A DNA stretch of 64,000 bases. Source: Craspedostauros australis (lineage: Eukaryota > Bacillariophyta > Bacillariophyceae > Mastogloiales > Achnanthaceae). Below are positions 6,870-63,777 of this stretch, in pieces. The position numbers and the translations under genes were made by a program. The notes under the pieces were generated by a model. The model was not told the DNA's origin, did no database searches, and saw nothing but the letters and a program-made list of their open reading frames with translations. The DNA is taken from the NCBI GenBank assembly GCA_026770025.1, contig JAMXDE010000054.1:1-64000 (forward strand), written 5' to 3'. Each line of letters begins with the position of its first letter. Position 1 is the first letter of the stretch.

Positions 6870-9800
6870 TCACCATCCCATGAGCATCCGTCGCAGGTGT
6901 TCGAAAGCATCCCGCGCAAGGCCCTTGGTGAAGATGTCAGCGACCTGATGTGGTGTTGGTACGTGTAGGATTCGAATGAAGCCTTCCTTGACCCAGTGCC
7001 AGAAGAAATGCCATTTGGTGAGAAAGTGTTTGGTTCGCGCCGTGACCTTGTGGTTTGTCGCCAGTGAGATGCACGCCTCGTTGTCTTCAAAAACGGTGCA
7101 TTGGATGTTGGTTTGCAGCGGTTGATTGAGACTCGTTGATGCGTTGACTTCGTTGATGAGTTGTTGCATGGGGATGAGGGCACGCATGGCAAGAGACAGC
7201 GCGGCGTATTCCGACTCCATTGTCGATAAGGCAATCTCTGTCTGCAGTTTCGATTTCCACACGAGCGGGCAGCCACCGAGGATGATGACGTAGCCGGTAC
7301 GTGAGCGTACTGCGTTGGGAGAATCGTCGGACTCGCGCTTGTACAGACCAGCGAAATCGGCATCGACGTAACACTCCAAGTTGAGTTGGCCCGTTGGTCG
7401 TACGATAGTGCCCATGGTGTTTGTGTGGCGGAGGTATCGCACGATCATCTTGATGGCCTTTGCATGCGGTTGGCGGGGGTCGTTGCTGAATCGGGCCACT
7501 TGAGATACGGCGAAGGCCAGGTCGGGGCGTGTGTTCGTAGTCAAGTAGAGCAGCATGCCCACGATGGAGCGGTAGTTCCATGCTTCCTTCATTGGCGGTT
7601 GGTCGGTTGAGGCGCCGAGGGCAAGTTGTGTTGTTGGTGTTACGTTTGGTTTGCAATGCTGCATGCTGGTGGCCTCGATGATCTTGTTGATTAATCCGGT
7701 CTGCTTGAGGTGGATGGTGTTGTTTTTGGGGTCTCGGTGTAGCGATATTCCCAGGAACTCCGTGAACGTGCCCTCTCGTGTGAGATCAAATCCGCGCTTG
7801 CGCATGGACTCGATGAATGCGTCTGCCTCTTCTTCCGTACGCGAAGCGATGCCAGCGTCGTCCACGTAGAGAACGATCATCATGCCGTCTCGCATGAACA
7901 GGCACTTCTCTTGGTCACACGCACGAAACCCTTCCGCAAGGAGGGCGCGCACGAGGTGCTGATACCATAGCTTGGGAGCTATAGTTAGGCCGTAAAGGCT
8001 TTTAATCAGCTTGAGGCACGTGTCAGGTCCATTCGTCGATCGGAAGCCGCGAGGAAGGTGTAAGTAGACAGGCCGGTGGATGTCGGCTTGGACGAACGCG
8101 TTCGAAAAATCGATCGACGTCGTGACCCAGCGGAGCAAAATGGAAAGGATGAGAAAGACGCGGACGGATGACCATGCGACAACCGGAGCGTAGGTTGCCT
8201 CCGTTTCGGTCATCATATCGCCTCTGCAGCACCATCGGCCTTTATACTTCTTGACCGTCCCGTCGGGCATTCGCTTGCGTCGAAATACCCATGTCCCCGG
8301 GAAGATGCGATCGGTGGTGGAGGATTTCGGCACTTCAATCCACGTCCCTTTGTTGGTGAGATCGTGGATTTCCTTGTGTGCGGCGGCCATCCATTCATTC
8401 TTGTTGTCGTCATTCATGGCCTCGCTGAAAGATAGAGTGTCGGGGTCGGCTTTCGACGCCTTGTAGCTGAAATGCCGGTCCGTGATGTCGAGATCGCCGC
8501 CGCTGGTGAAGAAGCTGAGCAGGTCGTATGTGATGAAGGCACTGTGGTTGTCGTTGTCGTCGTGCTCGACCGCTGCTGCCATTGCGTAGTGTTCGTCGGT
8601 TTCATCGTCATGCTGTGGTGGATGGTGGGCGTGGTGAGTTGGTGCCGAAACGTGCTGTTCGGCCTGTTCGAATTCGCTCGGTGGAGCCATGATCGTTGGT
8701 GGTACCTCGGGTGCGACTCCAAGCTGGATGTGTAGGTGGAGTATTCCGATTTCAAATCGCTCGTCGTGCGTGATGAGGTGCCACGCGAAGCCTGCTCGTC
8801 GCATGAAGTCCTGTACCCGTTCATCTTCGTCCGGCGGTCGCAGACCGTTCTCCATGGCCGCAATGGCTCGCTCCAGAGTATATCGCTGGCCTTGTGTTCT
8901 TGGTATAAACCCAAAGTACGAGACGGGGAGGTGGTACTCACCTGTCTCGAGCATTTCGTCGACGGCGTCAACAAACCTGCGGATGGCGTAGTAGATGCAC
9001 TGGCTTCTTGCAGCCTCCGTTGGGAATCGGAACTGCACCACATGGTCAAAGTAGTGGCGGATGTGTCGAGTGATGTTAACGTGGTGTGGCCACAGGTGAC
9101 CGATGTCGATGGGGTCCATGGTGTAGCCGGGGGATGAGTCGTCGTCCTCTGAGGACGAGTCGGATTGGTTGCTCATCATGAGGATGTGGTGTTCATGCCG
9201 GGATGTTGCTTCATCGGCCGCTGCCTCCTCTTGTTCCCTGCGCATCTCGGCCCGGATCTCGAGCTGTCTTGCACGTAGCATCCGTTCCATTTCGAGGTCG
9301 CCCTGCGCCCAACGCCGTTCGTCCTTTTGTAGCTCTTCGGTATCGATGGTTTTCAAATTTCGGAGCATGGATTCCGCGTTACGGACCAGGACCTTGGCTT
9401 TTTGTGTCACCTGGTCGTCAGGGTGCTCTGTGAACTCCATCAGTGACTGGCAGCACTCCTGTAAAACCTTCTTCATGCTCTGCACTGCTTGAGTCCTGCT
9501 GGAGTTGCCTGTGTGTTGAGTTGTCACGTTGGCGCTAGCTTCGATGGGTAGCGTGTCTTCATCTGCCCACACGACTTTGCCCCCTAACTTGTCGTAGGTG
9601 AGCCGCTCGACGGTTTTGCGTTCTCTTGGCTCTCGTTTGTTGATACGCTCCGAGCGGCGGAGCGGAGGCGGCCTGGTTGGTTTGGCCTTGTCTCTTTTCG
9701 TTGACGCGTGGATGGGTTCACGAAGTGGCGAAGCTGGAGGGGAATCACTTGCGATCGGCATGACACCACTTTCGTCGTCGTTTGTCGCTCCCTCTGTTGG

Positions 9801-12800
9801 TGGCAACAGGTTTGGCGAGGTCGTGGTGATGCGTTCCGGTAGCTCCTCAGCTCCCTCTGTTTGTGGCACTGGTGACTTGGGTGTGTCGTCGTGAACGGTA
9901 TCTGATGACTGGAGGGTTGGTTGAGGTGGTTGCACTTGATCGACCGGTGTTGCGTCGTTGTTCATTTCCGGTTCCGACGGCTGCTCCAAAATGTGAGCTG
10001 GTGAGTCTGTGTTGGTCGGAGTTCGCGTGGGTGCCGGTTGTGCGCCCAATGATGTTGGTGGTATCGGCGCATCGTTGATGGAGTGAAACCGTCGGTGATC
10101 GTTTGCGTCTTCACGTTCGATATCTCTTTCTTCCATGGCGATGATGTCTTCGTCGTCGAAAGGAATCTGGTAGGTTGTATCGCCGAACATGTGGGTCCAT
10201 TCGCTGGTGTTGTAGTCGGGAAGGTCGCTTGGGTTGGTTGCGATGGTTGCGAACCAATCGTCAAAAACGACGTGAAATTGTGGGGTGATCGATCCTGTCC
10301 GTGGTGACAACACAAGGGGGACTGTTGATGCGTGACGGGTGGAGAGGCCCATGTTGACGTACCGTTCTCCGCGTGGTTCCCATCGTGGAATCTTGCGGCC
10401 ATCGCCAAGAGCTTTGTTTAACACGTACACTGGGCTGCCCCACACATGAAGGTTGTGGAGTTGCTTCAGTGGGATGCGAGTTCGCGACAGGATGTCCATT
10501 GGTGTTAATCCGGTGGCTGCGTTGGGGACCCGATTGTGAATGTACGCTGCATGCACGACCGCCATGGGCCAATGCTGTGCGTCAAACATCGTCGGCCAAT
10601 GAATGCTCTGATGCATCATCATTGTGCGTGCCATGGAGATGATGGTACGGATGCTCCGCTCGGCCACTCCGTTGTGATGATGGGCACCGACTCCGGCGAA
10701 GCGATGCACTTGATGGAAGCGCTCAAGGTGTTTGGTGTAGTCTGGAGATGTGAAAGTGGTGGCATTGTCCGATAGGTAGGAGCGCACCGGTACCCCCACA
10801 TCACGACACATGGACTCGAATCGCGTCTTGGCTTCAAGTGTTGCGTGGGTTGTGAGAGACGCAACAGGTTCCACGTGAATGTACCCTGATGCATGATCCA
10901 CAAACATCGCTCCGCCTTTATACATCTCCGAGGCGTCAGATTTGCCCCTTCCAGTGAATAGGCGGCCCAGCGTGCGTCCCACGAAGTGGTCCACGGAGAC
11001 CTGTTGGCCGGGGAAGAGGTGATCGGTTTTGATCACACCCTGTCTGTCCCGTATTGCGTGCTGTGTCGTGCCTGGTGTTGGTCTGCGGTGTTGTTTGCCA
11101 AACTGGCATGCCGCACATAGCGGGCACTCCTGCACACGGGCGGCTGCTGTTTGCATCTTCCGTGATGCTTCGGTGTTGACGAGTGCACCTGATCGAAGTA
11201 GGAATTGCACGCGTCGGAAGGAGAGGTGCCCGAGTCGGTAGTGCCATTTGAGGAGTTCCTTCTGTGGCTGGCTTAGATTTTGGTTGTGTTGTGCTACAGA
11301 AGTGATGGTTGTTGTGAGCGCGGCTGGCACGTCGGAGAGATCGCCTGTGCGGTAGGCACGTGATGTGGGAAGACGATTTGCTTTTCGGTTGTGGGCGACG
11401 ATGGATCCTCGTTCTTCGTTTCCTGGGATACCGCTCAGCTTGATGTTGGTAGCTTCCACGATGTTGTTTTCTCCTTTGTACTCATGGAGGAGACTTGTGG
11501 TGCTGATGAGTTTGACGGATGATCCTGGTACGTAGAAGGCCGGGAGACGCAAGGATCGCGGCTTGCCGTGGGTGTCGAGGATCGACCACTCCACTGTGCC
11601 CTTCGTCTTGACCTTGGTGCGACGAAGGAACCCATTGAGGAAGGTCGGTGTTGTTGGTGCAGAGGTGGGGCCCACAAAATCGTTCATATCGTTGGTAACA
11701 CAGATGGAGGCACCGGTGTCCCACACTACATCGAAGGAGCCACCGCTTGGGATGACCTCTTCTACCTTGTGAGGCGCAGCGAAGGCATGTTTACAACCGA
11801 GGATGGCCGTGAGGGTGTAATAGGCGTTGGCAAGTACGTTGGCGCTTGCGTGTTCACTTGGTCGTGCTTCGTTGCGTTTGTTGGGTGGACGAGCGGGACT
11901 GGGCGTATGCTTCGCGCGACAGGAGTTTTGGCTTGTACCTCTGCATCGGCGAACCCGTCGGGTTTTGTTTCGGTGGTTCGCACGTGGAGCGTCGAATTTT
12001 GCGATGGTGGTGCGTTTGTCGTGGAGGAAGTGCTTGAAGTCGTCGTTGCCAAACACAGAGTCGTACAGACTGTTTGCTGGCATGGCTGGATGATGGTAGA
12101 AGCGTTGGTGAGTTTTAAAACGCTTTCGTTGTTTCTTCTTCCAGACGTTGGTTGCATGGCTTGTTCGGGTCGAGGTGGGTTGGTAATGCCGTGGAACACT
12201 GGTGTGGAGGGCGAATAGCACAATGGCTGTTGTCATCCACATCATGGTGCTCATCACGTACCAGCCGCACTCGATGCCGAGCACGGCGATTTGCATTGAG
12301 CAAAGGGCGAGAAAGGATCCGGTCAAGATGTTGATGGTGTCGAAGGAGGTGAAGACCTCCCACACGGCTGTCCACCAGGCATGTTCGCTCACGTGCGCTT
12401 CCGCGGACAGGCAGGTCCAGGCAGCGTGGTCGATTTCGAGCTGTGGGTTTTTGGGCTTTCGCTGGAAGTCGTCGATGTGGCCGGCTGTGCCGTGGGAGAT
12501 GCGCCAGTGGCGGCACTTCGCACACCAATGGAAGGTCTTGTCGTTCATGAGCTTCTGTTGTGGCTCACCCTTCCTTGGGGGCGTTGTGATCCAGGGGTCC
12601 TTCTTTGGTTGTGTTCTCTTCGTGGTTGCTTTGTTCTTGGCACCCTGTCGCTTGCCTCCTTTGTGCTGTTCCAGAAGACGGGCTTCCTTCGTAGTTGAGG
12701 TGTGGTTTGCGTGCATGCGAGGGGTGTTTCGATCACGAGAGTGCTTGTTGGCGTGCCAGGAGTTTCCTTGCAGCTCGTCGAGATAGGCATCCTCAGCTAC

Positions 12801-14063
12801 GCTGCAGATGTCCATCCAGGTGAGGTCTTCACGGAGCAGGTGAGGCTCCGCTCGCTCGTAGGTCTTGAGGGACTTGTCTTCGATCAGTCGTCTGAGTCGA
12901 TCGCTGATGTCGAGGATTCGATGACGGTATCGTTCTCCTGACGTGGTTCTGCCTCCTGCCATGAAGAAGTTGTCTGTCATGGTACGGAGAAGCGAAATCT
13001 TGAACTGGTCGGCGTCTTGAAGTTCCTTGCACATGATGCGAAGAGCGTCAGCCATGGCTTGGATGTTCTCTCCCTGGAACTTCTGGGGCGTGGTCTTTCT
13101 GACCTTCTCTTGGAGCCGTGCGTACTTGTCCAGCGAGCTCGAGGTGATACTCTTGATGAGTTCGGTGAAGATCACGTTGAAGTCTTGTTGGTACTTCGGC
13201 TTGATGCGGTTCATCAGGCGGTCTTCGAGGTCGGGGTCAAGGCTGTCGCGCAGGAATCGAGCGGCAGATGCGTTGTTCTGCTTGTCGTATCGATCCCACA
13301 AGTGGCGATAGACGTCGTGGTGGTCGGTGGCTTGGCTGATGGTGGTGCTGCCTGGGGCATCGAGGACACACACCATCTCATCGGGGTGTTCGTTGCTCCT
13401 CATGTAGGTCATCGAGATGAGACCTGCGGTGGACATGTGGTCCTTGAGGAGGCGCAGCATGCGCTGGCGGTTGTCTCCAATCCGGAAGCGTGGGCGGATG
13501 CCTTTCTCTCGCTCCGGTTGGTTCTTGGAGTCGGAGCCGTTGTGAAGAACGCGCTGCTGTTGGGAGCTGTCGTAGGACAGGGCTGCGTCTTCAGCGAGAC
13601 CTGTCCATTCGACGTTCGGCTTCCCTCCCGTCCATGGTACCCAGTGACGACCAGCCTTGGTGAGACCACCCATGATGGGTTTCTCTGGCTTGTCTTCGCT
13701 TTCGTACGCCACGTACGTGGTTTCGGGTCCGATGGGGTCTTCGTCAGCTTCAAACGGGAAGTCACCTCCGGTAGATCCGGTTTGGTTGTCGGCGTTGCCT
13801 TCGCGTCTACCGGTTCCTTCGGTCTCACCAAGGTTTGGTGGGTTGTTGGCGCCCCCAGCGTTTTCTTGGGCTGGGTCGCCTTCGCCTTGCCCAGCTGCCG
13901 TTTGGCCTCTCTGCTGGGCAGGGATGGGTGCAGCTCCTCGTGAGACTCGGGATTCGTTGAGGTCTCGAAGGGCTTGGGCGGCTTGTTGGTTGAGCCGCTC
14001 CACGAAGGCCTCCAGCCTGCGTTCTTCGCTGCTGATGCTCGTGTCTTCTCCTTGTTCGCTCAT
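6870..14063 (-). CDS. Gag-Pol polyprotein of copia element A, 2397 aa
   Basis: One unbroken ORF encodes all functions for replication through an RNA intermediate. Approximate residues: Gag 110-450; a Cys/His segment (WCAKCRHWRISHGTAGH) 513-529; two hydrophobic helices 577-621; protease with active-site DTGAS near 780; GAG-pre-integrase 935-990 (HYRLGH, CAAC); integrase with D about 1025, D about 1099 (LSDNATTF) and E about 1135 (NGVAERS); an acidic Pro-rich linker; an extra conserved domain 1655-1790; RT 1905-2150 with YVDD near 2065; RNase H 2230-2370 with VDADFAG, TMESEYAAL and FEDNEAC; end motif ADIFTKGL. The catalytic residues I can identify are present. The length is well above the 1300-1500 residues usual for copia, because of the long linker, the membrane segment and the extra domain. 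The real stop is TGA. Confidence 0.95.
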   Translation of the reverse strand: MSEQGEDTSISSEERRLEAFVERLNQQAAQALRDLNESRVSRGAAPIPAQQRGQTAAGQGEGDPAQENAGGANNPPNLGETEGTGRREGNADNQTGSTGGDFPFEADEDPIGPETTYVAYESEDKPEKPIMGGLTKAGRHWVPWTGGKPNVEWTGLAEDAALSYDSSQQQRVLHNGSDSKNQPEREKGIRPRFRIGDNRQRMLRLLKDHMSTAGLISMTYMRSNEHPDEMVCVLDAPGSTTISQATDHHDVYRHLWDRYDKQNNASAARFLRDSLDPDLEDRLMNRIKPKYQQDFNVIFTELIKSITSSSLDKYARLQEKVRKTTPQKFQGENIQAMADALRIMCKELQDADQFKISLLRTMTDNFFMAGGRTTSGERYRHRILDISDRLRRLIEDKSLKTYERAEPHLLREDLTWMDICSVAEDAYLDELQGNSWHANKHSRDRNTPRMHANHTSTTKEARLLEQHKGGKRQGAKNKATTKRTQPKKDPWITTPPRKGEPQQKLMNDKTFHWCAKCRHWRISHGTAGHIDDFQRKPKNPQLEIDHAAWTCLSAEAHVSEHAWWTAVWEVFTSFDTINILTGSFLALCSMQIAVLGIECGWYVMSTMMWMTTAIVLFALHTSVPRHYQPTSTRTSHATNVWKKKQRKRFKTHQRFYHHPAMPANSLYDSVFGNDDFKHFLHDKRTTIAKFDAPRANHRNKTRRVRRCRGTSQNSCRAKHTPSPARPPNKRNEARPSEHASANVLANAYYTLTAILGCKHAFAAPHKVEEVIPSGGSFDVVWDTGASICVTNDMNDFVGPTSAPTTPTFLNGFLRRTKVKTKGTVEWSILDTHGKPRSLRLPAFYVPGSSVKLISTTSLLHEYKGENNIVEATNIKLSGIPGNEERGSIVAHNRKANRLPTSRAYRTGDLSDVPAALTTTITSVAQHNQNLSQPQKELLKWHYRLGHLSFRRVQFLLRSGALVNTEASRKMQTAAARVQECPLCAACQFGKQHRRPTPGTTQHAIRDRQGVIKTDHLFPGQQVSVDHFVGRTLGRLFTGRGKSDASEMYKGGAMFVDHASGYIHVEPVASLTTHATLEAKTRFESMCRDVGVPVRSYLSDNATTFTSPDYTKHLERFHQVHRFAGVGAHHHNGVAERSIRTIISMARTMMMHQSIHWPTMFDAQHWPMAVVHAAYIHNRVPNAATGLTPMDILSRTRIPLKQLHNLHVWGSPVYVLNKALGDGRKIPRWEPRGERYVNMGLSTRHASTVPLVLSPRTGSITPQFHVVFDDWFATIATNPSDLPDYNTSEWTHMFGDTTYQIPFDDEDIIAMEERDIEREDANDHRRFHSINDAPIPPTSLGAQPAPTRTPTNTDSPAHILEQPSEPEMNNDATPVDQVQPPQPTLQSSDTVHDDTPKSPVPQTEGAEELPERITTTSPNLLPPTEGATNDDESGVMPIASDSPPASPLREPIHASTKRDKAKPTRPPPLRRSERINKREPRERKTVERLTYDKLGGKVVWADEDTLPIEASANVTTQHTGNSSRTQAVQSMKKVLQECCQSLMEFTEHPDDQVTQKAKVLVRNAESMLRNLKTIDTEELQKDERRWAQGDLEMERMLRARQLEIRAEMRREQEEAAADEATSRHEHHILMMSNQSDSSSEDDDSSPGYTMDPIDIGHLWPHHVNITRHIRHYFDHVVQFRFPTEAARSQCIYYAIRRFVDAVDEMLETGEYHLPVSYFGFIPRTQGQRYTLERAIAAMENGLRPPDEDERVQDFMRRAGFAWHLITHDERFEIGILHLHIQLGVAPEVPPTIMAPPSEFEQAEQHVSAPTHHAHHPPQHDDETDEHYAMAAAVEHDDNDNHSAFITYDLLSFFTSGGDLDITDRHFSYKASKADPDTLSFSEAMNDDNKNEWMAAAHKEIHDLTNKGTWIEVPKSSTTDRIFPGTWVFRRKRMPDGTVKKYKGRWCCRGDMMTETEATYAPVVAWSSVRVFLILSILLRWVTTSIDFSNAFVQADIHRPVYLHLPRGFRSTNGPDTCLKLIKSLYGLTIAPKLWYQHLVRALLAEGFRACDQEKCLFMRDGMMIVLYVDDAGIASRTEEEADAFIESMRKRGFDLTREGTFTEFLGISLHRDPKNNTIHLKQTGLINKIIEATSMQHCKPNVTPTTQLALGASTDQPPMKEAWNYRSIVGMLLYLTTNTRPDLAFAVSQVARFSNDPRQPHAKAIKMIVRYLRHTNTMGTIVRPTGQLNLECYVDADFAGLYKRESDDSPNAVRSRTGYVIILGGCPLVWKSKLQTEIALSTMESEYAALSLAMRALIPMQQLINEVNASTSLNQPLQTNIQCTVFEDNEACISLATNHKVTARTKHFLTKWHFFWHWVKEGFIRILHVPTPHQVADIFTKGLARDAFEHLRRMLMGW

Positions 14064-31264: not shown

Positions 31265-34200
31265 CTCGAGGGTCTACGATCGCGTCTCCACGATGTCAAG
31301 TACACGATCACAGACGAGGAGATGATCATGCAAATCCTCAGCACGGTGAGCAGCGAATACAGAACTCACATCGTGAACTTCCAACACCAACTCACGTTCA
31401 ATCCGGAACTGGTTACCATCAACGCGATCAGAGGAGTGCTCCGTACTGCATACGCCACCCACAGAGGAGGCAAGGCATACGTCGACGACTTCCAAGACAG
31501 TAACACGAAGAGCAACGACACCGGCTTCACGAGTACCGGTAACTTCAAGGGTACTTGTCACAACTGTGGCGTGTATGGTCACAGATCCGCCGATTGCCCA
31601 GAACGTAAGAAATCGAACAACAAGAAAAACAACAACAACAACAACAAGATGAACGGAAAGCACAACAACAACCGCAACAAAGGAAGCGGCTTCAACAGGA
31701 AGTGCAACTACTGTGGCATCTTCGGACACCGCGAGGCGGAGTGCCAAAAGAAGAAGTTCAACGAGAACAAGAAGGCCAACGAACAAGCCAACACGGCAAC
31801 GGAAGGACACAACAAGAGCGGGCACGAGATGGTACTCTCAGCAAAGGACATGCCGCTCTGCATGTTGGTGTCCGACAACTACATTGAAGACTCCTTCTTC
31901 GATAACTTCGAATGCGTCGGGAGTGACGACGAAGTACAGGACGATGAGATCGTCCCGGAGTGGCTCAGCGAAGAGCCAATCATCCACGAGGTGGATCCAA
32001 GACGCGAAGTAAGCTACGAATGCTGCTTCAACGCGAACGACCTGATTGGTCCATATGGCGACGGAGCCGAGATGGGCAACGAGGCCAACGATAGCAACAT
32101 CGAAGAGGCCATGAGTGAAGAGGCCGACGATGAGATCAACGAGAATGATAGAGGCCAAGATGAAACGAACGGCGGTGCGGCGCCTCCTCCTCCAGCGGCA
32201 GGGAACAACAGATCGGGCATCTTCGACGAAGATGATAGCGATGAAACCGAAAATCATCCGGACGACAGCTTCAATCCAAACGAGCGTGTCGTCTACCCAG
32301 CGAACATCGAGTTCCCGCCGATCGGGAATCCCAACGACTTGAACTACCTCCACCGTCATGACACCATTCCGTATGGAACGGAAACAGCATTGGTAATCCA
32401 GAAGCAGCTCATCTTCGATGCCGTAATGGAAGCAGGAGTGAAACTATTCCCAGGCGTCGCACAAGGAGTGCTCAGACCGATATGGGTGAACATGATGGGA
32501 TCCATTCTGTCCAAGAACTTCAGATCAATCGAAGAGATTCTCGTCAATTCGGTCGTCATCAATCGCATACTGGAAGCGGCTGACACAGAGACGATTCCAG
32601 AAACGGATCTGCATTACATCCTTGGAGGATGCATGTGTGTGCTCTTGCGCGAACGACCACGCGTCAACCCATATGATCCAGCCACAGGATTGCATCGAAA
32701 CAGTACGATTCCATCCGACTACGCGCAACTACCCGACAACATGGATGACGAGGACCACCATCATCCATACAACGAAGACGGAGTCCACGAAGACGATGAT
32801 GATGGCAGCTTCGACGACGAGATAGCTGCGGCAGCTGTGGAGCAGCTCCACGAACTGAGCACCAGATACAAGGGCAAGGTCAACAAGGACACCTGGCTCA
32901 CCAACAGTGGAGCTTCGTGTCACATCGTCAACTCGGACGCCGCTCTCTTCAACGTGCGGCACATCAAGTCTTTCGTCCAAGTGGGAGACAGCACGAAGCT
33001 GGACTCTCCCAAGATGGGATCCATTCGCTTGAAGGTCAAGCAGCGAGACAACACTGGCCACATCATCCGGCTTGATGATGTGAAGTACACACCAACAATG
33101 GCGGTGAACCTTTTCTCAACAAACAAGACTCTGTACAATGGTTACCAGCTTGGTAACAACGGCATTTTGATGGACATCATCAACGGATCCGGAACGAAGA
33201 TTGTGTTTGATCGAGTCTTCCCCACATCCAACGGATTCATCACAGGAGTGCAGATGCATCCCATCATGCCATCAAACGACGACAAGGCTTCCACAGCCAT
33301 CATCAAGAATCCATCCAAGGAGATCAGCGCGGTGAACTTGCACCGAATGCTCGGCCACGCGCCACTCGAGACCATGAAGCGGACGGCCGCTCAGTACGGA
33401 TGGAAGATCATCGGCGAGATGCCGGTATGTCGCGACTGCGCGGTCGCGAACGCAAGAGTGAAGAACATCCCGAAGGCAACGATTCCAAGAGCAACTCGCC
33501 GCGGCGAACGACTCTTCATTGACATTAGTTACACTAAACACATAAGCTTCAGAGATAAACGCTACTGGACCCTGATTGTGGACGACTGCACAGATCACTG
33601 CTGGAGTTTCTTTCTCAAGAACAAGAGTGACCAACCAGGGTACATCAAACGATTCGTTCAGACGATCAAGTCACAGACTGGTGATCAACAAATCATCTTC
33701 CGAGGAGACAACAGCGGAGAGAACAAATCTACGCAGGATACTCTCATCGATGCAGGACTCAATGTGAAATTCGAATTCACGGCATCAAACACGCCGCAAC
33801 AGAACGGTAGAGTAGAACACAAGTTTGCGTACCTCTACACCAAGATCCGCTCCATGCTCAACGGAGCACAACTCGACGAAGAGTATAGGCATGGCCTATG
33901 GGCAGCAGCTGCTAGCACTGCCACCGCCATTGCCAACATCACCGTAGCGAAGAACCAGAAGGAGTCACCACATCGACAATTCTTCGGCAACGATCCACCA
34001 TATGCGGATGCACTCCGTACATTTGGAGAGGTGGGTGTTGTGAAGACTACCTACGGCGGGATCACCGCCAAACTCAAGAATAGAGGAGAAGAGATGGTGT
34101 TCATCGGATATGCACACCAACACGCATCAGGGGTCGACAACATGTACAGACCATCGACCAAGTCACTCATCTGTTCACGGGACATCAAGTGGCTCAACCA

Positions 34201-34771
34201 ATCATACGGACAGTTCCGTGGCTGGGCACCAGCACCAAACATATCCAGCGAAATGGGAACGACAGACGCAGACGGCTTCACAACCATCGGATAGAAGGGA
34301 GCAATGCCAAGGATGGCAATGCGTCAAACATCAGAAGCGAAGAGAGTATCTTTCGCCGACACGAACAAGTATCACATCATATCAGATAGCGACGATGAGG
34401 ATGACGAAGACAATGGAGCAGTGACTCAAGTAATCCATAACAACAACGAAGATGGGAGCGAATCCAATCAGGAGGATGACGAAATCCAACCATCCGGTGA
34501 TGAAGCCGACGATGACACAGGCGTCACTCCTCCAAACACACCAGCAAGGTCTACACATGACACACCATCCAGACCTCCACCAACCAAACCAAGCAAGCGT
34601 GACATAGCTAGAAAGGAGAGAATCCGACGTCATGAAGCACGAGGCAGGAAGGGAGAAACCAATCCCAAACCGACTGCAGGGAAGAGCATTCCTAGAGCTC
34701 TGCGTGAGCTCGCAGACTTCAACGAACGAGGTCGAAAGGAGGAAGGCTATGAGCAAGTCATCATCCAATGA
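31265..34771 (+). pseudogene. Gag C-terminus, protease and integrase of element C
   Basis: In frame with the previous segment. Two CCHC zinc knuckles follow each other (CHNCGVYGHRSADC and CNYCGIFGHREAEC), separated by an Asn-rich linker. An acidic region follows, then the protease, where the active-site triad reads TNSGAS: codon 32903-32905 is AAC, so the catalytic Asp is replaced by Asn. GAG-pre-integrase is near LHRMLGHAP. Integrase D, D and E are present (FIDISY, RGDNSGEN, NGRVEHK). A TAG at 34292-34294 interrupts the frame, which continues to 34771. Confidence 0.85.
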
Positions 34772-50961: not shown

Positions 50962-52640
50962 TCATAGAGCGGACGAAGCCCACCAATGTCGCCCGATCCA
51001 TGTATGACTCCATTTGTTCTCATATACAACCGTGTACAACTCCATCATGGACATACAGCTGTACTCGTCATCAATACCATCACTCTCCGCTCCCCCACTG
51101 CAAAGGAAATGAATGTCTCCCATCAGTTGATGATGTGGAATCAGCTTGCTGAAATCTGGATGAGTGAACATATCTTTCTCACTTTCAGCTGCCATTCTCG
51201 TTGCTGCATCCTTCAACACCACACAGTTGTATTGATTGGCAAATATCAGCGTGTCTATCATGTTTCCTCTGTGACATATTTGCAGGCCAAGTCCGCTTCA
51301 AAAACAAACTTGAGTCGCCAGAAGCCGACCTCGTTGGCAACAAGGATCAGTTGTTGCAGATCGTCCTGTCCAGTGAGGATGGGAGTTGGCTGATTAGAGG
51401 CATCTGCATTGGCGTTGCCATTATGAGTGTTGTTGTTGAAGGATATCTCACCTGTGTAGATACATTGGAGGACGTATCGGACGTGTTTTGGTTGAAGGTT
51501 GGGAAGAGGGATGGTGGTTTGGATGGGTTCAGTTCCTCCGTGAGCGACATCATGGGCACCATCGTGAGCGCATTGATGTTGGATTCCAGAGTTGATCAAT
51601 GCCTGAATGGATGGGACAGTGACCATGAGGACCGCGGAGTTTGCCTTGATTGCTTGTTGATCGTACCCTTGTCCGCAAAGGAAGGTAATGTCTGTGATGG
51701 CCTCGGTACGAATAGCGGCGCGACGATCTTGGTCGATGCTGATCTTGAGGTGTTGTTTCAACTGCCGTTTCAGTTGCTTGTTCTCCTGGTCCTTCTGTTT
51801 CTTCTCTTCCTCCTCCCGTTCCAACTGCTGTTTCAGTTGTTCGTTCTCCCTTTGAGATTTCAAGAGCATATGCTGCATTTCTTCCTTCTGCTGTTCCCAC
51901 TGCCGTTTCAGTTGTTCGTTCTCCTGGTCCTTCTGTTTCTTCTCTTCCTCCCCTCGTTCCAACTGCTGTTTCAGTTGTTCGATCTCTTGCTCGTTCTGTT
52001 GTAAGCGTTGTTGCAGTTGTGAGTTGCGGTGACTCAGATGATCGAGACGGTGAAAAATGATTCGAAGTGTTGCATCGATGAAATCGAGGGGTGTATTGTT
52101 GCTGTTGTTTTGGATGTTGATGTCGGCATTGGCTGATTCGATAAGATAATGCATACACTCCACGTGGTCGTCCATGCATGCGTGATGAAGGGGAGTGTTA
52201 CCATTGTCGTCTTTGCCATTGATGTTTGCCCCACATGATTCGATGAGGTACTTCACACACTCCAGGTGGCCTTCGTGACATGCCCAATGAAGGGGAGTCC
52301 AACCATCGTTGTTTTTGCGGTTGATGCTGGCCCCACATGATTCGATGAGGTACTTCACACACTCCAGGTGACCGTTGGAGCTTGCCCGATGAAGGGGAGT
52401 GGAACCGCTGTAGTCATTGCAGTCGACTTTGGCCCTGTATGATTCGACGAGGTACTTCACACACTCCAGCCGGCCGTACCTGCATGCCTCATGAAGGGGA
52501 GTGCAACCCATGAAGGCTGTAGCCTTGTTGAAATCAACTTCTTCATTCTGCGTCTCGGTCCGCTTCTTCCATTCCTTCAACACCGACAATTGACCTGCCA
52601 TGGCAGCAACATTGAGTTGATAGTTCGCAGCATTCGGCAT
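50962..52640 (-). pseudogene. ankyrin / coiled-coil / BTB protein, copy 1, frameshifted
   Basis: The gene starts at 52640 (MPNAANYQL). Residues 43-170 hold four ankyrin repeats of 33-34 residues (TPLHxAxxxGHLECVKYLIES). Residues 185-300 are a long Gln/Glu/Lys coiled coil. A BTB/POZ-type domain follows (DITFLCGQ, LPNLQPKHVRYVLQCIYTGE). At 51258-51261 the frame ends at TGA within ATGA, while the next frame carries on with IDTLIFANQYNCVVLKDAA, exactly where the paralogue reads TTIDVLIFAHQHNCVVLKDGA. One base has been lost, or the base call is wrong. The rest reads on to 50962. Such proteins often act as adaptors, for instance for cullin-3 ubiquitin ligases; that role is inferred from BTB family knowledge only. 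Confidence 0.82.
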
Positions 52641-58867: not shown

Positions 58868-60268
58868 TTACACCACCCACAACAATCTCACAGCACTGCC
58901 TCTGGTCCATCCCTTCGGTTCATGGCCGAGTAGGGACTGCTGCAGAAGTTGTTGATTCAACAGTTTGGTCTGGCGGAGGACATGAACGCCTCCCATCAGT
59001 TGATGGTGTGGAATCAGCTTGCTGAAATCTGGATGAGTGAAAATGTCTTTCTCATTTTCAGCTACCATCCTCATTGCTCCATCCTTCAACACCACACAGT
59101 TGTGCTGATGAGCGAATATCAACACATCTATCGTGGTGTCCTCTGTGAGATGCTTGTGGGCCAACTCTGCTTCAACAACAAGCTTGAGTCGCCAGAAACC
59201 GAACTCATTGGCCACAAGGATCAGCTGTTGCAGATCGTCCTGTCCAGTGAGGGTGGGAGTTGGCTGGTTTGTGTCATCAGCATTGTCTGTGTTGTCATGA
59301 GTGTTGTTGTTGAAGGATATCTCTCCTGTGTAGATGCATTGGAGGACGTATCGGACGTGTTTTGGTTGAAGGTTGGGAAGAGGGATGGTGGTTTGGATGG
59401 GGGCTGCGTCGTCTTCGGTGCCATCATTCGCGCATTGATTTTGGATTCCTTTGTCGATCAGTGTCTCAATCGATGGGACGGTGATGATGAGGATTTCGGC
59501 GTTTGCTTTGATTGGTTGTTTTTGGTCATCCTGTCCACACAAGAAGATGGTGTCTGCCCTGTTCTCGGTTTGGAAGGATCTGAGCCGATCTTCTCCAATG
59601 CTGATTTTGGTCCTCTTGTGGCTGCTGTGTTTGTGTTCATTCTCTTGTTCCTTCTGTGTCAACTGCTGTCTCAACTGTTCTCGCGGTTATTCATTCTCTT
59701 GGTCATTTTGTTGTAAGCGTTGCTGCAGTTGTTGCAGTTGTGGGTGAACTGAAGGCGAGAGTCCTCTGATGAGGGACTCTATACACTCCAATTTGACACT
59801 GCGGCATGCCCCATGAAAGGCAGTGTGACCATGGTTGTTTTGGCAGTTGATGTTCGCCCCACCTGATTCGATGAGGTACTCGGTACACTCCAGCTCGCCT
59901 TGGCTGCATGCCCAATGAAGGGGAGTCCAACCATCATTGTTTTGGCAGTTTACGTTTGCCTGGCATGATTCGCTGAGGTGCTTCACACACTTCAGGTGGC
60001 CGTTGCAGCATGCCACATGAAGGGGAGTGTCACGATCGTCATCTTCGCAGTTGATGTTCGCCTCACATGATTCGATGAGGTACTCGATACACTCCAGCTG
60101 GCCGTTGCCGCATGCGGCATGAAGGGGAGTCCAACCATCCATGTCTGTAACCTTGTTGACATCAACTTCTTCATTCTGCGTCTTGTTCTGCTTCTTCTAT
60201 TCCTTCAATGCCAACAAGTCGCCTTCCCAGGCAGCCCGAAGGAGTTGTTCATTCGTAACATTCGGCAT
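58868..60268 (-). pseudogene. ankyrin / coiled-coil / BTB protein, copy 2, with two nonsense codons
   Basis: The gene starts at 60268 (MPNVTNEQL), matching the start of copy 1. Codon 24 is TAG where copy 1 has Trp (LKE-stop-KK versus LKEWKK). After it the same frame carries about four ankyrin repeats (from 60142) and a shorter coiled coil, broken by TAA at 59687-59689. It then runs through an intact BTB part (TIFLCGQDD, LPNLQPKHVRYVLQCIYTGE) including the segment frameshifted in copy 1, and ends at 58868. The coiled coil is much shorter than in copy 1. Both stops fit one C-to-T change. Confidence 0.82.
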
Positions 60269-61290: not shown

Positions 61291-62967
61291 CTACGCGGAA
61301 CAGGAAGAATTGCCGATGCAGCCTCCGTCAGCCACCGGATCAACGTTGGAATAGCATGCCATGATACCGAGGCAAGCTCCATCGCCAACATCGCCTTCGT
61401 TGCGGGAGCACGCTTCGTACATTTTGCACGAATCCATCCCGATCTCGCCGTAGTTGCGGGAGCAAGCTCGTTGTCCTTGGCATGACCCCGCTTCGATGTT
61501 ACCGTAGTTGGAGCGGCAAGCTCGTTGTCCTTGGCATGACCCCGCACCAACGCCACCTTCGTTGAATGCGCAAGCGTCCATGCCTTGACAGGAGCCTTGG
61601 CCAATGTAATTTGAATTCGAAACACAAGCGTAGGTACCGTTGCACGCGTACGATGCGACTTGCCCAGAGTTCTCTTGGCAGGCTGCTCTTCCAATGCAAG
61701 AGTAGTTGCCGATCTCGTCGTAGTTTTCCTCGCAAGCATACTCGGCATGACAGGAGCCTTGGCCAATGTCATAACGATTCAAAAAACAAGAGTTTTTACC
61801 AATGCATGCGTTCGATGCGACGGTTCCGTAGGTGTAGAGGCATGCGTAAAAGCCCAAGCACGATCCTTCGTCCACATCGCCGGACTTTAGCCCACAGGCT
61901 TCCTGGCCAATACAGGAGCCGTCATTGACATTTCCGGAGTTGCTGCCACACGCCCCCATATCGATACATGAGCCACTACCAACGTCGCCATTGTTAGAAG
62001 AGCAAGCCCTGTCTCCGAAGCAAGAACCCTTGCCGATGGCTCCCTTGTTGGACATGCATGCTTCAATACCATTGCAAGCGTCATCGGCGACAGTGCCAGA
62101 GTTCTCCTTGCAAGCGGCCTCGCCGTTGCAAGCACGGGAGGGCACGGACACGGCGGTGTACTGGCAGGCTCTGTCGCTGTTGCAAGAGTAGGAGGCAATC
62201 TGGATGGTCGTCGTGATGTTGGGATTGAAGAAGCAAGCTTGCTCGCCGTTGCAGGAGTCAGGGCAGACGGTGACAGAGCTCTCACTGCTCCAAGAGCATG
62301 CGGGGTATGTGGCGTTGACCGACGCTTCGCAACAGCTGGCATCCTTGGCCGCGCACTTGGCTGTGACAGCTTCGGCTGTTCCAGTGAAGCACGGCTCGAG
62401 TACCTCGGGGGGCTTGGTCGATTTCGAGGACTTCGCCGATTTCGAGGACTTGGAGGACTTCGCCAATTTGGCGGATTTCGAGGACTTGAGCTGACGACTG
62501 TTGGCGTCGTGAGTCTCGTCTGTCTCCATTCCAACAGACAGAGAGCTGTGCTCGTGCGATGCATGCTCATCCTCATCGCTGGACGCATCTTGGGCTTGAA
62601 GGCGACCGAGATCGGCGTACTTGTCCTTGATGTTGGTGGAGATGGAATGACGGGGACGGCGGATGCTGTCTGCGATCTTGTCTGTTGTGGTCTCGACCTT
62701 TCCATCGTGAGAGTGCAGGTGAGAGAGCAAGTGCGATTGCAGGTGAGAATGCGATTGCGAGTTTGGCATGCTGGCATCTTCCCTCTTGTCGTTGGCTGTC
62801 AACTCCATGAGCTTCGCCTTGGCGGCGTTGGCATTGGCGTCGACATTGACGTCGATTTTGCCATCTGCGGCTGACTTCTTGTTGGTGTTCAGCACCGCGT
62901 CGACGCCATTGCAGATGATGCTCTGAGCCACGACGAGAGCGAGGATGTCTTTCTTGATGATTGGCAT
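61291..62967 (-). CDS. secreted Cys-repeat protein with RXL site and Lys-x-x-Lys cluster, 558 aa
   Basis: Residues 1-25 form a signal-peptide-like start (IIKKDILALVVAQSIICNGV). Residues 68-88 are His/Ser-rich (SHSHLQSHLLSHLHSH). At about 158 an RQL tripeptide precedes a run of KSSK, KSAK and KLAK tetrads to about 185; silaffin precursors carry RXL processing sites and Lys clusters spaced K-x-x-K. From about 262 to 549 lie 16 tandem 18-residue units of form C-x-G-x-x-A-C-x5-G-x-[IV]-x3-[SA], then a partial unit CIGNSSCSA. Two Cys six residues apart recur in every unit, so a disulphide-bearing beta-helix is plausible. Location in the cell wall or outside the cell is inferred. The stop is TAG. 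Confidence 0.85.
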   Translation of the reverse strand: MPIIKKDILALVVAQSIICNGVDAVLNTNKKSAADGKIDVNVDANANAAKAKLMELTANDKREDASMPNSQSHSHLQSHLLSHLHSHDGKVETTTDKIADSIRRPRHSISTNIKDKYADLGRLQAQDASSDEDEHASHEHSSLSVGMETDETHDANSRQLKSSKSAKLAKSSKSSKSAKSSKSTKPPEVLEPCFTGTAEAVTAKCAAKDASCCEASVNATYPACSWSSESSVTVCPDSCNGEQACFFNPNITTTIQIASYSCNSDRACQYTAVSVPSRACNGEAACKENSGTVADDACNGIEACMSNKGAIGKGSCFGDRACSSNNGDVGSGSCIDMGACGSNSGNVNDGSCIGQEACGLKSGDVDEGSCLGFYACLYTYGTVASNACIGKNSCFLNRYDIGQGSCHAEYACEENYDEIGNYSCIGRAACQENSGQVASYACNGTYACVSNSNYIGQGSCQGMDACAFNEGGVGAGSCQGQRACRSNYGNIEAGSCQGQRACSRNYGEIGMDSCKMYEACSRNEGDVGDGACLGIMACYSNVDPVADGGCIGNSSCSA

Positions 62968-63183: not shown

Positions 63184-63777
63184 TCGGTGTGCGGAGGCAT
63201 CGCCAAACTTCTCTGTTTGTTTCTTGCTGCTCGCCACAAGAGCAACGAACGTCGGCGAGCAGTTGTTCCGACGAAAGTGCCTCTTCGACAAAAATCACCA
63301 ACTTTGCCGCCTCCAATTGCGGCCAGCAGGCGTCGAACAGCAAAGGTCGAGCGGCCAACGGAGAGGTTGGTGGGACTTCGCTGGCTCAACAGAAATTGAA
63401 GGTTTCGTGAAGATCCCAATGAGATCTACAAGTGAACTCTCTGTGCAGACCTCGCAGGCATGTTCGCTTCACATTTTCCGCGGTGTTCGTTAGTCGACAC
63501 ATTTTCCGCGGTGTTCGTTAGTCGACACATCTTCCTCTTTGGAGAATTGTCACTGAGTCACTATTTCTGGACATTTAAGGCCAATGTCAGCGAACGATGC
63601 CGCAGTCGCGCCTAGTCGTGACTCAGATTGTCGTAAAATGTAAAATGTAAAATGATATACAATAACATAATCCATACCACCGTACGATCTTGTACATATA
63701 AAAATGGTCTTCATCCGACCTTTTCTTCAAAAGTTATAGACCTTTATCTCTGACGCACGACGCTGTGGTATTTTTTC
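63184..63777. repeat. dispersed repeat R, copy 2
   Basis: Partner of 15175-15826. The last 150 bases (from about CTCAGATTGTC) are nearly the same in both copies, including GATATACAATAACATAATCC. Copy 2 lies just upstream of the Cys-repeat gene in the opposite sense. Confidence 0.7.
63471..63526. repeat. 28-bp tandem duplication in repeat R copy 2
   Basis: Two perfect 28-bp units, each beginning ACATTTTCCGCGGTG and ending GTTAGTCGAC. Copy 1 carries only one diverged version. Confidence 0.9.

Follow-up and report, generated by a model that had tools for sequence, protein, structure and literature searches.

A DUF7640 repeat protein family with a silaffin-like header and apparently diversifying unit positions in a diatom

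Introduction

Leucine-rich repeat (LRR) proteins and the variable lymphocyte receptors (VLRs) of lampreys join a held core and better-kept ends to variable exposed positions. Proteins of the diatom cell wall have been described through features of their sequence layout. Thalassiosira pseudonana was screened by signal peptide and KXXK sites, and RXL sites, pentalysine clusters and proline–threonine (PT) repeats were among the proteins found (PMC5501833, cited, like the other sources used here, from excerpts); a pentalysine cluster is defined as five non-consecutive lysines within 12–14 residues (PMC5501833, PMC9650480). Cleavage of diatom wall proteins has been proposed to occur at RXL, which is present also in frustulins (PMC4557024), so that RXL alone indicates diatom wall-type processing rather than silica. 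Here we describe a gene in which a header of this kind precedes a long cysteine repeat. It lies at 61291–62967 on the reverse strand of the window, by which we mean the whole stretch analysed, the first 64,000 nucleotides of contig JAMXDE010000054.1 of Craspedostauros australis, and forms an intact open reading frame of 558 amino acids with no internal stop.

We propose that the gene encodes a wall-associated rod that is processed at an RXL site, stapled by disulphides and furnished with a diversifying face for recognition or adhesion, a reading to which we assign a probability of about 0.45. A preliminary description made from the letters of the window had already picked out the order of parts and the repeat; the gene family, its DUF7640 identity and the diversifying positions go beyond its observations, and the diversifying positions are what is new in this analysis.

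A DUF7640 family in the source genome

The repeats of the window protein correspond to Pfam DUF7640 (PF24646), which matches in four stretches with an E value of 2e-48 and 164.1 bits against a curated cut-off of 28.1. The entry describes a domain without assigned function, and a literature search found no paper naming it; none was returned for silaffins, RXL and cysteine-rich proteins together, and searches on diatom beta-helices, adhesives and silica, and on diversifying selection and repeats in diatoms, returned nothing that could be recognized as this family, judged by the listings. NCBIfam gave a weak sugar-acetyltransferase match only (E 0.23).

The source genome (74.8 Mb in 90 contigs) contains at least 91 matches to the whole window protein, many of them pieces of one gene, at least 163 DUF7640 matches and about 30 full-length paralogues, of which 29 were read as frames, the window gene included. 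All family statistics refer to these 29, that is, the window gene and 28 frames out of loci L009–L047, which were selected for being open. L012 was excluded for a stop in its header match, L036, L039 and L040 as truncated, and L037 and L038 as remote; L041–L047 were also left out. Two sequence sets drawn from the paralogues, A1 and A2, comprised 21 and 22 of the 29. A midpoint-rooted tree of header and cap separated clade A (8 genes, including the window gene) and clade B (7 genes) with support of 100/99 or better, and the remaining 14 paralogues form a more diverged group C. Unit number ranged from 7 to 35 by a strict count; a looser count gave 11 to 14 units in group C versus 15 to 36 in clades A and B.

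Several incomplete or unlike relatives accompany these genes. L036, L039 and L040 (contig C2) have repeat units without a complete header and are possible pseudogenes or unit donors. L041 (57–4274), L043 (75–4223) and L046 (62–4054) carry long P-S-Q-T-P-T-E-S type repeats that end in DUF7640-like cysteine units, without K-x-x-K; L041 matches DUF7640. In L063 (1010–1567, reverse strand) and L064 (1520–2611, forward strand), cysteine repeats are followed by a strong hydrophobic stretch (peaks 2.45 and 3.34), and these are perhaps membrane-anchored relatives. Beyond the source genome, DUF7640 occurred in none of 14 control genomes, and 38 viral-contig and 237 genome-contig stretches with the pattern included no relative by tblastn, in a search in which eukaryote genomes were not covered.

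The silica-forming host presumed in the preliminary description is borne out by the silicon transporters, for which we counted 88 matches, 28 of them near-full-length frames without a stop and the rest including broken copies and fragments. Silicon-transporter genes are present also in silicifiers other than diatoms, and judged by its gene content the source genome is a silicifier's. Typical copy numbers are 3–5 per species (PMC10700740); in diatoms and Parmales, the range extends beyond 30 (PMC13403384).

Apparently diversifying positions of the repeat unit

We cut 517 units from the 29 genes and matched each to the nearest unit of a different gene, using no unit in more than one pair, at a DNA identity of 0.80 to under 1, excluding identical pairs and pairs below 0.80. 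Across the resulting 163 pairs, five positions of the unit (DIVERSIFYING positions 9, 10, 13, 14 and 16) gave a ratio of nonsynonymous to synonymous differences per site (pN/pS) of 0.187/0.112 = 1.67 (bootstrap 1.35–2.09). The ratio was 0.16 at the core positions 1, 5, 6, 8, 11, 12, 15 and 17, and 0.54 at positions 2, 3, 4, 7 and 18. By clade, the five positions gave 1.77 (1.22–3.10) in A, 2.04 (1.60–2.91) in B and 1.10 (0.74–1.91) in group C. Among pairs of at least 0.90 identity the values were 2.34 (1.33–7.17), 2.34 (1.27–7.63) and 0.70, and at 0.93 or more they were 1.68 (0.77–7.41), 4.06 (1.58–9.46) and 0.52, respectively.

Because the five positions were first picked on pooled data, we cross-checked between clades. 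Positions above 1 in clade A gave 1.80 on clade B and positions picked on B gave 1.77 on A; on group C the two selections gave 0.98 and 1.10. Leaving out the 15 genes of clades A and B one at a time kept the ratio at 1.67–2.46; it was 1.97 for middle units alone and 1.61 for end units. Synonymous single changes comprised 134 transitions and 23 transversions, and neutral mutation simulated over the same codons returned mean Nei–Gojobori (NG86) ratios between 0.94 at kappa 1 and 0.65 at kappa 6, which shows a downward bias of the method. We infer from the way they are placed around the held residues that the five positions form one exposed side. These exposed positions seem, on the codon comparisons, to evolve under pressure to change in clades A and B but not in group C.

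At the level of whole genes the picture is mixed, because units have been turned over. The solenoid ratio exceeded 1 in 2 of 11 comparisons (L011/L013, 1.16; L021/L031, 1.48), and in 14 comparisons NG86 ratios were 0.28–0.77 for the header and 0.18–0.71 for the cap. In the three comparisons of the window gene, synonymous divergence (dS) over the aligned solenoid was 0.77–0.86 versus 0.09–0.17 over the header, a sign of unit gain and loss. When the window units were matched to five clade A genes, units 1–3 mostly found units 1–3 (identity 0.81–0.98, unit 3 lowest) and units 16–17 found the array ends in at least four of these genes; the middle units matched shifted places, partly in runs, at identities of 0.54–0.89.

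Such turnover, with dS in the solenoid far above that in the header and middle units displaced at lower identity, is what a relaxed, fast-turning minisatellite family would produce, in which unequal crossing over makes the variation and diversity is not selected; the absence of the diversifying signal from the 14 genes of group C also fits this explanation. We consider it quite unlikely, as core positions of the very same units are strongly held, the neutral simulation reached at most 1.15 against the 1.67 seen and random unit pairs gave 0.99. The frames are, moreover, open in all 29 genes used, though these were chosen for openness.

A silaffin-like header

The sequence of parts given in the preliminary description, namely a signal-like start, a His-rich part, RQL, a lysine cluster and cysteine repeats, was verified at the level of coordinates (Table 1). 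The N terminus is hydrophobic, with a cleavage-like site between VDA and V, and hydropathy peaks at 2.62 at residue 8, whereas no stretch starting at residue 31 or later exceeds 1.45; together with conservation among the paralogues this fits the predicted signal peptide, a call made by a hydropathy and homology heuristic.

The header as a whole evolves fast (median column identity 0.31 over the 29 paralogues), and its best-kept columns are G121, R122, L123 and K161 (29/29) and R158, L160 and D119 (28/29). The R-L sites are thus the most constant part of a fast-changing region, as expected of processing sites, and the conservation of RQLK and GRL argues that the silaffin-like layout is real. 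An RXL site directly before the K-x-x-K cluster, pointed out earlier for the window protein, recurs as R-x-L-K in 27 of the 29 paralogues. Residues 161–185 of the window protein contain five overlapping pentalysine clusters and KXXK sites (X = S or G) at 161, 170, 173 and 179. Among 20000 shuffles of residues 25–192, a K-x-x-K run as long as that of the window protein never appeared; any pentalysine cluster arose in 1561, which makes that criterion weak alone and leaves the strict lysine spacing as the unusual feature. Across the family, 21 of the 29 paralogues have a pentalysine cluster and only 13 have two or more KXXK sites; in L025, L026 and L033, which form a clade, most of the lysine cluster has been lost. 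His richness (six His within residues 73–87 of the window protein) is not a general family feature: the maximum per 15 residues reaches 4–8 in clade A (8 genes) and 5 in L035, against 1–3 in the other 20.

More distant proteins share parts of this layout. Among 14 with an N terminus taken as usable (L050–L056, L057.1, L058.0, L058.1 and L059–L062, with the first Met upstream of the hydrophobic stretch in L053 and L054), R-x-L-K was found in 8 and a pentalysine cluster in 4. A Pfam scan of nine distant proteins matched DUF7640 in eight (L051 just below cut-off) and gave no match in L055; PT repeats occur in L050 and L051, beside DUF7640, and in L055. GRL is also seen in the headers of the distant L057.1, L058.0 and L060. 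A genome search with the RQL–lysine stretch returned 10 places, all of this family, and missed the clade B clusters; the search is therefore insensitive and gives little information on the frequency of such stretches.

These features bring in the main rival, a pure biosilica scaffold, that is, a silaffin- or cingulin-like protein whose lysine comb promotes silica deposition and whose rod serves as spacer or template, with the variation incidental. In the silaffin-like set of T. pseudonana, selected by signal peptide and KXXK, RXL sites, pentalysine clusters and PT repeats were present as well (PMC5501833); this resemblance, the lysine spacing of the window protein, the silicifier genome and the PT repeats of distant members all favour it. 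A scaffold accounts for the header but not for the diversifying positions, since an inert spacer would not be expected to reach pN/pS values above 1 at matching positions in two clades. In addition, 8 of the 29 paralogues have no pentalysine cluster. We regard the scaffold as possible but doubtful.

Predicted fold and cysteines

The solenoid suggested in the preliminary description was recovered by structure prediction, as AlphaFold2 gave a confident beta-solenoid for the repeats, in two models. Block means of the predicted local distance difference test (pLDDT) were 83–91 over residues 271–520 and 67–81 over the last four blocks; pLDDT below 50 at residues 15–47 and 59–190 fits disorder in the header. 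Sixteen units of 18 residues had been proposed. The 16 steps of exactly 18 stand, but they join 17 C-x5-C pairs, and with the earliest pair, 23 residues upstream, the window protein has 18 (starting at 239, 262, 280 ... 550). Over the paralogues, 462 of 496 intervals were steps of 18.

The handedness first proposed, that of a left-handed beta-helix, fared less well. Right-handed beta-helices led the structural matches of both AlphaFold2 models, and no left-handed helix was among the matches listed, which does not exclude that class. The left-handed hallmark [LIV]-G-x4 did not recur in successive hexads, one of the three hexads having the aliphatic residue: V, I or L occupies position 1 in about 98% of 500 units, N accounts for 30% and I for 20% of the residues at position 7, and position 13 is Y, F, A or others. 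On the other side stand four weak sequence-profile hits in the PDB, including 6sc4 (E 2.9e-4) and 5jxx (E 0.008), which we take to be left-handed helices.

A beta-solenoid would also suit a soluble or mucilage-borne adhesive rod that leaves the wall and cross-links extracellular polymer, its variation tuning substrate binding. A shared fold proves no function, however, and the relevant structural matches have root-mean-square deviations (rmsd) of 3.9–5.4. The match lists also include enzymes, tailspikes and LRR proteins, and Foldseek against the PDB with the first model gave nothing below E 0.7 (best 0.74). We judge such a rod unlikely.

Units were defined by their cysteines at positions 6 and 12, whose full conservation there is therefore by construction. 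In the 29 proteins, no solenoid unit keeps one of the two and has lost the other, one unit of L023 has an inserted residue between its paired cysteines, and a lone extra cysteine occurs in L022, L026 and L032. Beyond residue 24, 27 of the 29 proteins have an even number of cysteines, the odd counts being those of L022 and L026, with one extra cysteine each. Paired occurrence and even counts suggest disulphides, and the simplest reading is that each turn would have one. The disulphide ladder of the preliminary description is thus retained as to the bonds, which more likely staple each turn than link turns. Six cysteines of the cap outside the pair pattern (193, 205, 212, 213, 224 and 235) are invariant across the 21 sequences of set A1.

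Beetle antifreeze proteins are right-handed beta-helices with a single C-x5-C in every turn; their coil is TCTxSxNCxxAx with a C2–C8 pair (PMC8038014), and an ice-binding solenoid might be considered on that ground. The units do not follow this 12-residue coil, having 18 residues per turn, no conserved T-x-T in the unit profile and an irregular set of variable positions, which makes ice binding highly improbable.

A proposed wall-moored rod with a changing contact surface

Core residues that are held, array ends that are better kept and exposed positions that vary, combined with a predicted secretion signal, a diatom-type RXL site and a lysine comb of the kind that directs proteins to silica, lead us to propose a wall-moored rod with a changing contact surface. 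The gene would encode a secreted precursor; its sequence shows a signal-like start, a variable header with conserved GRL and RQLK sites, a lysine comb, a six-cysteine cap and 18-residue units in varying number. Cleavage by an endopeptidase behind RQL would leave the lysine comb at the N terminus of the mature chain, where it may anchor the protein to silica or to its organic matrix. The units would fold as a rigid beta-solenoid, a rod in which every turn is stapled by a C-x5-C disulphide of its own, and positions 9, 10, 13, 14 and 16 would make up an exposed side along the rod that selection varies while holding core and cap; array length shifts as units are gained and lost. The most likely job is presentation of the variable side at the cell surface for contact, whether in adhesion, in recognition of own kind or mates, or in interaction with microbes.

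A more specific version, which we think rather unlikely, is a germline repertoire of wall-displayed, disulphide-stapled solenoid receptors with a lysine anchor, a constant cap and exchangeable units, serving self or mate recognition or defence in the manner of LRR proteins and VLRs on an unrelated scaffold, with mooring of the silaffin type. A Pfam scan of the window protein found no LRR family up to E 1, and the unit profile has no Leu position.

If the proposed rod is correct, DUF7640 moves from a domain of unknown function to a testable hypothesis. Wall studies have centred on silica shaping and less on protein recognition, and the family, combining silica-protein processing with a diversifying rod, offers genes for testing recognition of mates, neighbours, surfaces and parasites. 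With eight positions held and five free to vary, the 18-residue unit might moreover serve as a modular scaffold.

Other features of the window

Upstream of the gene lies a short tandem repeat; elsewhere the window holds a second 102-base tandem array, an ankyrin-repeat protein and two retrotransposon-like frames (Table 1).

Table 1. Parts of the DUF7640 gene and other features of the window
Feature	Positions	Strand	Residues	Basis or remark
Signal peptide (predicted)	62896..62967	-	1-24	Hydropathy heuristic and paralogue conservation
His-rich stretch	62707..62751	-	73-87	Inside predicted propeptide; sequence
GRL motif, possible second processing site	62599..62607	-	121-123	29/29 paralogues
RQL, RXL-type processing site (putative)	62488..62496	-	158-160	Paralogue conservation
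Lysine cluster	62413..62487	-	161-185	Nine K, exact 3-residue spacing
N-terminal cap	62200..62391	-	193-256	Six Cys outside pair pattern and first C-x5-C pair
Solenoid, DUF7640	61294..62199	-	257-558	17 C-x5-C pairs, 18-residue steps
Stop codon	61291..61293	-		Sequence
28-base tandem repeat	63470..63535			2.4 copies, 97% matches; upstream of the gene
Second 102-base tandem array	59768..60139			Similar unit
Ankyrin-repeat protein	51261..52640	-		With BTB domain
Retrotransposon-like frame	31322..34291	+		Pol_BBD and zinc knuckle
Retrotransposon-like frame	6873..14063	-		RVT_2 and gag_pre-integrs

Comparison with known systems

The window protein shares with silaffins, cingulins and silaffin-like KXXK proteins a predicted secretion signal, RXL, KxxK and a pentalysine cluster, and two distant DUF7640 proteins share their PT repeats. 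It differs in the large cysteine solenoid that follows the lysine cluster, and the likeness is one of layout, known from sequence alone. Beetle antifreeze protein (TmAFP) likewise has one C-x5-C per coil, but on a 12-residue coil with a T-x-T face. Left-handed hexapeptide beta-helices of the LpxA kind resemble the family in their 18 residues per turn and in the weak profile hits; here, however, the third hexad of the unit opens with a hypervariable residue. Right-handed beta-helix adhesins (Ag43, TibA, PfbA), tailspikes and epimerases superpose at rmsd 3.5–5.4 with no sequence relation found, and differ from the window protein, whose turns have 18 residues and a cysteine pair each. Compared with lamprey VLRs and plant LRR resistance proteins, the family has an unlike header and host, and VLR-like somatic assembly would be only an analogy; what it has in common with them is better-kept end units and diversifying exposed positions on a constant solenoid core.
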